DNA of 52,458 nt, taken from the NCBI GenBank assembly GCA_029338875.1, contig JAQYBF010000010.1, forward strand, positions 1-52,458, given 5' to 3'. Every line of letters begins with the position of its first letter. Position 1 is the first letter of the stretch. This stretch comes from Lachnospiraceae bacterium (GTDB taxonomy: Bacteria; Bacillota; Clostridia; Lachnospirales; Lachnospiraceae). The translations under genes were made by a program, and so were the position numbers. Positions 4,018 through 49,275 of the stretch are shown here, piece after piece. The notes under the pieces are model-generated. The model ran no database searches. It had not been told where the DNA came from and worked only from the letters and a program-made list of their open reading frames with translations.

Positions 4018-4291
4018 AACATCGGAATTTGAAATTTTTGCCGAAATCGATGTTTCAATATCCGGAAATAGGACGTGCAAACATCGGAATTTGAATTTTT
4101 AGTCGAAATCGATGTTCAAAAATCCGGAAATCAGAGGTACAAACATCGGGATTCAAGTTTTTTCCAGAAATCGATGTTTGACCGCCCAGAAATCAGGAAA
4201 ATAAACATCGGAATTCAGAATTTACTTCAAAATCGATGTTTATAATCAGAAAAGACATCTGAAAACAAATTTTCTGTTGAAATCGATGTTG
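4018..4291. repeat. Array A: 62-bp-period palindromic-ended tandem repeat
   Basis: AACATCGG at 4018, 4080, 4142, 4204 (exact 62 steps); CGATGTT at 4048, 4110, 4172, 4234, 4284. Confidence 0.9.
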
Positions 4292-4427
4292 AAATTAGAG
4301 AGAATAAAAATACTAAGCGACGTTATCCTCCCCCGGAACCAATGTTGAGACTTAGTCAAATCAAGCAGGCATTGAAATCTTAATTTTTGAGAGACCGATG
4401 TCGTAATATTTCCCAATCAACAAATTA

Positions 4428-5630: not shown

Positions 5631-5793
5631 AACATCGGAATTTGAGAATTTCTTCGAAATCGATGTTTGAAACTCCAAAAAGCGATAATACAGACATCGA
5701 GATTCGGAATTTTCTACAAAATCGATGTTTAAAACGAGTAAAAGACATCGAAAAGCTAATTTCGATTGAAATCTTCTATTGAAATCGATGCTC
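5631..5793. repeat. Array B: 62-bp-period repeat, same orientation as array A
   Basis: AACATCGG at 5631, equivalent at 5693; CGATGTTT at 5661 and 5723; degenerate third unit. Confidence 0.85.
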
Positions 5794-5832
5794 TAAGTGC
5801 AATCAGTTAACAGACAGCGAGATTTCAGATTT

Positions 5833-10405: not shown

Positions 10406-10564
10406 GTGTGCTTCGGACGAAATAAATGCTTCTCTTTATAGGCTTGTTTTAGAGTACTTGTTGACAATACTATTGACTTGGAATTTTAAATTCTGAAGCT
10501 GATTTAATCGGATTCAGCTGACTTTATTCATTACTTCGGAGGATTTCAAGGAAAAACTTGAATC

Positions 10565-10635
10565 CCGATGTTTGCTTACTGATTTACCTGATTTCAAAAC
10601 ATCGATTACAAAGAAAAACTCAAATCCCGATGTCC
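10565..10635. repeat. Array C: 62-bp-period repeat in the opposite orientation to A and B
   Basis: CCGATGTT at 10565 and CCGATGT at 10627 (period 62); AACATCGAT near 10599. Confidence 0.75.
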
Positions 10636-12814: not shown

Positions 12815-13547
12815 GGTACTGGTTCAGGTCCGTGACCTGAAGAAATATTATAAAAACGGCGAAATCAAGGCTCTGGACGGGGTCTCTATTGATATCCATC
12901 AGGGTGAAGTTCTGGTTATCATCGGACCTTCGGGCTCCGGCAAGTCCACTCTGCTTCGGTCCCTGAATCTTCTGGAATTCCCGACCTCCGGCAGCATTGA
13001 TGTCGACGGGGTCGATATTACAAACCCCAAGATCAATATCAACAAGCACCGGCAGAAGATGGGCATGGTCTTCCAGCACTTTAATCTCTTTCCCAATATG
13101 ACCATTCTGGAAAATATGACCCTGGCGCCCATGAAGCTTCTCCATAAATCAAAGGAAGAAGCGGAAAAGCAGGCCAGAGAGCTCCTGAAGAGAGTCAATC
13201 TGGAGGACCGGGCGGATTCCTATCCCAGACAGCTGTCCGGCGGCCAGCAGCAGAGAATCGCCATCGTCCGGGCCCTCTGCATGGATCCGGAGATCCTGCT
13301 TTTCGATGAGCCGACTTCGGCTCTGGATCCGGAGATGGTCGGCGAGGTTCTGGATGTTATGAAGGAACTGGCCAGGGGCGGTATGACCATGGCGGTCGTT
13401 ACCCATGAGATGGGATTTGCCCGTGAGGTGGCCGATCATGTGGTCTTTATGGCGGACGGCAAGATCGTCGAAGAGGGCAGCCCGGATCAGATCTTCGATC
13501 ATCCGGAGAGCGAGAGGCTGAAGAGTTTTCTGGCCAAGATTATCTGA
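12804..13547 (+). CDS. Amino-acid ABC transporter ATP-binding protein (GlnQ-like)
   Basis: [47 protein letters not shown]. Confidence 0.95.
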
Positions 13548-13557
13548 TGATTACAGC

Positions 13558-13748
13558 GTCAAAAGTCTGCCACCACGCATGCAAAGCATGCAAGTGGTGG
13601 CAAGACTTGTTGACACTGCCCCACATGAGACATGAAGTGGCGCGTATGCGTCACGACAATGTCGAATGTGGCAGCGTGGTGGGAGTTGCGAAGCAACGAA
13701 ACCACGCGTAATCATAAGTGAGTGTCAAAAGGCACTTTTGACACTCAC
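13558..13748. other. Dense multi-hairpin intergenic element (candidate structured RNA or MITE-like element)
   Basis: Hairpin AAGTC.TGCCACCAC-GCATGC-AAA-GCATGC-AA-GTGGTGGCA.A.GACTT (13563-13608); GTGGCGC/GCGTCAC; CGTGGT...ACCACG enclosing GTTGC-GAA-GCAAC; perfect 14-bp GTGAGTGTCAAAAG-GCA-CTTTTGACACTCAC (13718-13748). Confidence 0.7.
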
Positions 13749-13877
13749 ATCTTCTGATCGCGCCTTCAGGCAAAAATGAAAAAATTATGAAGAATCTGCG
13801 GAAAGGCTTCGGGCGCGTTGCTTTTCGCAGATTCTTTTCATATAATTAGGAAGTACAGCCTAAGAATGGAGGCCCGA

Positions 13878-45655: not shown

Positions 45656-45672
45656 GAAGCCCCGGATTCTTG

Positions 45673-45899
45673 ATTTAAACAACGATTTTGAGGAAAAACT
45701 CGAATTCCGATGTTTATTTTCAGGGTTTACCTCGTTTTAAACAACGATTTTGAGGAAAAATTTGAATTCCGATGTTTACTTTCGGTAATTTACCTCGTTT
45801 TAAACAACGATTTTGGGGAAAAACTCGAATTCCGATGTTTATTTACAGGGACTGCCTCGTTCTAAACAACGATTTTGAAGAAAAATTCGAATTCCGACC
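45673..45899. repeat. Array D: 62/63-bp-period repeat, opposite orientation to A and B
   Basis: CCGATGTTT anchors 45707, 45769, 45832, truncated 45894; AAACAACGATTTTGAGGAAAAAYTYGAATTCCGATGTTT. Confidence 0.9.
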
Positions 45900-49042: not shown

Positions 49043-49062
49043 TGACTGGTAAACAAAATAAG

Positions 49063-49275
49063 TTCTTCGGGGCAGGGTGCAATTCCCGATCGGCGGTAAA
49101 GTCCGCGAGCATTTGCAAGAACCGGTGAAACTCCGGTACCGACAGTTAAAGTCTGGATGGAAGAAGAGAAGCAGATTCTATGAGGTCTGAAAGGTCGTGC
49201 GAAAGCAGGATTTGAAATGCCTCACAGACAGAAACCGATTCCAAGTACCCCGAGTCTATACTCGGGGTATTTTTT
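49063..49275 (+). ncRNA. FMN riboswitch (RFN element) with terminator expression platform
   Basis: TTCTTCGGGGCAGGGTGCAATTCCCGATCGGCGGT...AACCGGTGAAACTCCGGTACCGACAGTTAAAGTCTGGATG; terminator TACCCCGAGTCTATACTCGGGGTATTTTTTT. Confidence 0.95.

Follow-up and report, generated by a model that had tools for sequence, protein, structure and literature searches.

Short intergenic repeats are known from several groups of Firmicutes. In the Bacillus cereus group the repeats bcr1-bcr3 are described as MITE-like in structure and function and are often transcribed within UTRs (PMC3446304), and in Streptococcus pneumoniae BOX and RUP are MITE-like, fold strongly and have terminal inverted repeats (TIRs) and target duplications, BOX being modular with variable internal parts (PMC3049150). 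The IStrons unite a structured RNA with a DNA transposon, being a group I intron plus an insertion sequence (PMC4227781). Clostridiales-1, known from Clostridiales and the human gut, was listed as a probable RNA without a cis-regulatory role in a paper whose main text is silent on its function, mobility, TIRs and duplications (Weinberg et al. 2010, PMC2864571). Rfam classes it as an sRNA gene (RF01699).

The window analysed here is a stretch of 52,458 nt from a Lachnospiraceae bacterium (contig JAQYBF010000010.1). Between the stop codon of a glnQ-like ABC ATPase gene and the downstream ftsH gene it contains a cluster of hairpins that is a copy of the published candidate RNA Clostridiales-1. 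This copy is very probably a non-autonomous DNA transposon (MITE) of about 205 bp that carries the Clostridiales-1 cloverleaf; it would depend on a transposase supplied in trans and may be helped by its structure to persist or to move. It resembles bcr1-bcr3 as a short intergenic MITE-like repeat of Firmicutes, and BOX in the modularity of its forms. These likenesses are of description; the host groups differ, bcr1-bcr3 are not RF01699, and the RF01699 cloverleaf, unlike BOX and RUP, is conserved across many genera. With the IStrons it shares the joining of a structured RNA to a DNA transposon, but Rfam scans of the window copy and of another copy in its genome (L056) matched no known ribozyme, group I introns included, no transposase is located inside, and the element is intergenic. 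As far as the literature examined shows, it is new that Clostridiales-1 is a transposable element in most of the copies examined; a search of incomplete coverage, with the 2010 supplement outside it, found no paper that treats Clostridiales-1 as mobile. A long-listed candidate RNA is thereby identified as a mobile unit of DNA, for which the ends, a preferred target and empty sites can be given.

Identification as Clostridiales-1

When the element was scanned alone with permissive filters, RF01699 matched over the full model with 88.8 bits, where the curated cut-off is 48, and the copy L056 scored 127.7 bits. The cloverleaf and the taxonomic group are also those of Clostridiales-1, but the Rfam model extends only to 13714, and the right-end palindrome and the right TIR fall outside it. 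An Rfam scan of the whole window with fast filters and gathering thresholds missed the match, its sole hits being an FMN riboswitch and a tRNA, and the first-look filter of the genome search likewise missed the window copy, a match 40 bits above the cut-off, so that all RF01699 counts are lower bounds. Matches are present in at least 84 of 150 sampled genomes of the bacterial family, above the cut-off in at least 65, with at least 17 scored candidates each in many genomes, and in none of 14 control genomes. The preliminary description had proposed a new structured RNA; the fold is indeed conserved by covariation, but the RNA was already in Rfam.

Extent and structure of the element

The features of the element are listed in Table 1. 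Its overall fold is a three-arm cloverleaf followed by a separate palindrome. In arm 2 an outer stem CCACAT/ATGTGG encloses the stem GTGGCGC/GCGTCAC (13637-13654), and arm 3 consists of CGTGGT/ACCACG enclosing GTTGC/GCAAC. The folding energy of positions 13540-13760 is -113 kcal/mol compared with -63.7 +/- 4.2 for 200 shuffles (z = -11.6), and the reverse strand folds nearly as strongly. All stems named in the preliminary description are present, whereas the closing stem of the cloverleaf, the outer stem of arm 2 and the TCTGA duplication were absent from it. The unit proves to be larger than was noted, and a pairing proposed to close the whole element, 13558-13566 with 13734-13742 (GTCAAAAGT/ACTTTTGAC), is real but belongs to the longer TIRs. 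These are 18 bp, imperfect, and read TGAT-N4-G-K-GTCAAAAG, inverted at both ends. The last hairpin had been described as lacking a T-run, which is correct for the plus strand, where the element contains no Rho-independent terminator; a weak match is found on the minus strand only. A mosaic repeat without clear ends, as suggested by BLASTN alone, was rejected.

Table 1. Features of the MITE between the glnQ-like gene and ftsH, and a second repeat of the window
Feature	Position	Strand	Basis or remark
Whole MITE, 205 bp	13548-13752	+	TIR pair and 5-bp duplication; missing from the syntenic locus in congeners G004 and G003
Left target-site duplication TCTGA	13543-13547	.	Same as 13753-13757; single TCTGA in G004
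Right target-site duplication TCTGA	13753-13757	.	
Left TIR TGATTACAGCGTCAAAAG	13548-13565	+	
Right TIR AGATGTGAGTGTCAAAAG	13735-13752	-	
Clostridiales-1 RNA (RF01699) cloverleaf	13548-13714	+	cmscan 88.8 bits, model 1-166; fold
Cloverleaf closing stem TGATTAC/GTAATCA	13548-13554 / 13708-13714	+	Fold
Arm 1, long bulged hairpin with GCATGC/GCATGC	13555-13617	+	Fold
Arm 2, conserved GAG/CGA internal loop	13621-13671	+	Fold; loop kept over 28 copies
Arm 3, GGGA/GAAA internal loop	13674-13707	+	Fold; conservation
Right-end palindrome, 14-bp stem, 3-nt loop	13718-13748	+	Includes inner part of right TIR
Second dispersed repeat	4018-4294, 5631-5796, 10527-10630, 45669-45897	both	

Copies, target-site duplications and empty sites

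The element shows the features expected of a MITE: TIRs, a target-site duplication, a short non-coding unit with many dispersed copies, and empty sites. Both a check for duplications and one for further copies had been proposed for the locus. The first revealed TCTGA on both sides of the window copy, the TGA of the left repeat being the stop codon of the glnQ-like gene. The second revealed dispersed copies in congeners. The TIR pattern has 15 occurrences in G000, 24 in G003 and 40 in G007, compared with 0, 2 and 3 for the reversed control, and there are tens of copies, mostly 183-217 bp long, in each of several other genomes, among them G046 with 142 exact TIRs. Duplications were counted in 96 distinct TIR-pair copies, the window copy and 95 others, from over 20 genomes of the bacterial family, taken from RF01699 matches and some TIR-pair loci and chosen regardless of their flanks. 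A perfect 5-bp duplication flanks 52 of the 96, compared with a mean of 2.5 and a maximum of 8 when the right flanks were shuffled in 1000 trials, and since the set includes a few spurious pairs this fraction is conservative; another 10 copies have a perfect 6-bp match. The first position of the duplication is T in 48 of the 52 and the fifth is A in 50, indicating a target consensus TNNNA. Within the genus, perfect 5-bp duplications flank four copies besides that of the window (TAGTA, TAGGA, TTTCA and TTACT). A Butyrivibrio fibrisolvens plasmid carries one copy with the duplication AAATA, and this copy, taken with the distribution of RF01699, points to Lachnospiraceae.

A clean empty site belongs to a 97-bp copy (G000:C76), for which the congener G004 has a single TAGGA between flanks that are 86% identical. 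At the glnQ-ftsH locus G004 is 93% identical and has one TCTGA and no element, and the locus of G003 is likewise without it; in G004 the bases directly to the right of the window insertion have diverged, which makes this empty site less clean than that of the 97-bp copy. There is strong support for regarding the window copy, and most of the others examined, as small transposable units of DNA whose insertion duplicates five target bases.

Such a unit would be moved by a DDE-type transposase, presumed to act in trans, that recognizes the 18-bp terminal repeats; it inserts into AT-rich intergenic DNA at TNNNA with duplication of 5 bp. For the window copy the insertion point was very probably the stop codon of the glnQ-like gene, and the congener whose locus is closest is free of the element. 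Copies have spread in bursts. Their persistence may be due to near-neutral insertion between genes.

In 15 genomes with high copy numbers none of 26 rve and 30 DDE_Tnp_1 loci has matching ends, nor has any of 17 rve loci in the genus, and no transposase was found inside TIR pairs of 1-2 kb. Some candidates were rejected. An IS21-like element (L160) was considered for its TIR-like string, which overlaps the start of its own istA gene; a 1,583-bp TIR pair in G110, considered as an autonomous transposon, consists of two element copies flanking a MATE-type gene, and TIR pairs of 1.2-1.5 kb in G046 similarly have host genes between them. Viral contigs contain no match to the left TIR and three to the right end (L231 8366-8383, L232 41-58 and L233 3655-3672). 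Two of these adjoin an apparent phage integrase region, so that a prophage may have its integration site beside the palindrome or inside it.

Short and modular forms

Forms of 39, 71, 97 and 130 bp also bear duplications. In G046 the full form of 185 bp occurs together with one of 71 bp that is arm 1 only and one of 130 bp that is arm 1 plus arm 3, several with duplications of their own, and the 39-bp forms of the genus, solo versions of the right-end palindrome with their own duplications, are two TIRs back to back. The cloverleaf seems therefore not to be needed for transposition, and the shorter forms, which still bear duplications, probably arose by loss or fusion of hairpin modules. The reverse situation is found in G087 and in some copies of G148 and G070, where the cloverleaf core is unchanged in kind but ends in different sequences that lack this TIR. 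The core is thus separable from the TIR, and the description as a MITE does not extend to every RF01699 member. In the G087 copies L154, L362/L321, L374 and L382 the closing stems of such cores (AAAGCCC/GGGCTTT and similar) extend into the flanks as perfect inverted repeats, resembling what would be expected if the core had been inserted into the loop of another (terminator) hairpin. Two head-to-tail tandem arrays with three RF01699 matches each are located in G070 (C5:256720-257222 and 1148792-1149190).

Conservation of the fold

A test of covariation, also among the checks proposed earlier, was made with RNAalifold on 28 representative copies. It predicts 40 pairs, 35 of them with at least one compensatory change, and the internal loops GAG/CGA and GGGAG/CGGAG are nearly fixed. 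Judging from these changes and the fixed loops, the folded interior is maintained beyond simple descent. Among single changes from Watson-Crick pairs within subfamilies, G-U exceeds A-C over the whole element (49 vs 26, p = 0.011) and in the right-end palindrome alone (10 vs 1), but not significantly in the cloverleaf alone (38 vs 25, p = 0.13). The overall excess would favour the plus-strand fold, but with the cloverleaf-alone counts selection at the RNA level is only a possibility.

The compensatory changes could also be the product of DNA hairpin repair, by template switching between the arms of a palindrome, and the unit would then be a plain selfish palindromic MITE with a functionless fold. 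Both arm 1 and the right end come close to perfect palindromes, and the almost equal folding of both strands, the duplications around forms that lack the cloverleaf (39 and 71 bp) and the missing G-U excess in the cloverleaf fit this account as well. Repair should, on the other hand, erase the mismatches of the two internal loops, which remain constant as the surrounding stems vary, and the overall G-U excess and the persistence of the core with unrelated ends also speak against it; we regard it as possible, though rather unlikely. The likeliest reason for a maintained structure would be that it helps the MITE to persist or to move, acting either as RNA, when a copy is cotranscribed with an adjacent gene, or in the form of single-stranded DNA. 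The question is then why a MITE would keep a covarying cloverleaf with fixed loops when 39-bp forms bear duplications. On a wider reading, mobility itself would be what the cloverleaf serves, whether as a functional RNA or as single-stranded DNA with a structure, for instance as a scaffold for recognition or a cofactor of the transposition machinery, and it would have been joined to several types of ends as a portable module of different small mobile elements in the family; this wider role we consider improbable.

Covariation over 28 copies and the classification in Rfam would also suit an independent gene for a small RNA, or an RNA acting in trans, whose copies spread by other means. Also in favour, one copy in G087 (L321), with tandem copies of arm 3, lies ahead of a reading frame similar to ribosomal protein L33 and has a promoter-like TTGACA-17-TATACT upstream. 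Against a primary role of this kind, the duplications and empty sites indicate DNA transposition, there is no σ70-like promoter at the window copy, and tens of copies per genome lie in both orientations to genes, all of which makes a small RNA gene very unlikely. Mobile repeat and RNA had been set against each other as alternatives for this locus; marks of each are indeed found, yet in one and the same unit, and of the earlier proposals that of a MITE-like unit is borne out by the inverted repeats, the 5-bp duplications in many copies, the empty sites and the dispersed copies. The case serves as a warning: a transposable palindrome can turn up in a covariation screen or an RNA annotation, and what a pipeline counts as sRNA genes may be copies of a MITE.

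Relation to ftsH and neighbouring genes

A role as cis-regulator of ftsH, as had also been suggested, or as 3' UTR regulator of the glnQ-like gene would agree with the position directly between the two genes and with a palindrome that, with a weak T-tract, could terminate transcription on the reverse strand, but it is barely credible for an element that has no conserved position upstream of ftsH in relatives, being missing in G004 and G003 where the ftsH leader is kept, and whose copies adjoin other genes. Of 20 copies tested, 19 have gene calls on both sides, with 7 in sense, 7 in antisense and 3 and 2 in mixed arrangements, and this lack of orientation bias fits poorly with a regulator tied to one gene. 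The element is not supported as an ftsH regulator, and its effect on ftsH is probably neutral. The leader itself consists of a hairpin AAGAATCTGCG/CGCAGATTCTTTT (13790-13838) followed by TATAAT (13841-13846), likely a terminator and the ftsH promoter, and its conservation in the element-free G004 and G003 indicates that it is independent of the element.

Copies are abundant in the bacterial family, often no more than tens of bases away from a gene, and may in this way shape UTRs and genome rearrangement. The 183-bp copy L056/L069 (G000:C60) closely follows the -10-like box TGATATAATACAG and precedes the start of an RNase H-like gene, and is probably transcribed as a 5' UTR.

Other features of the window

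A second dispersed repeat occupies four places (Table 1); its units, about 62 nt long, are arranged in tandem and each contains an inverted ACATCGG...CGATGT motif. The FMN riboswitch of the Rfam scan is located at 49059-49172, with a score of 106.7 bits.
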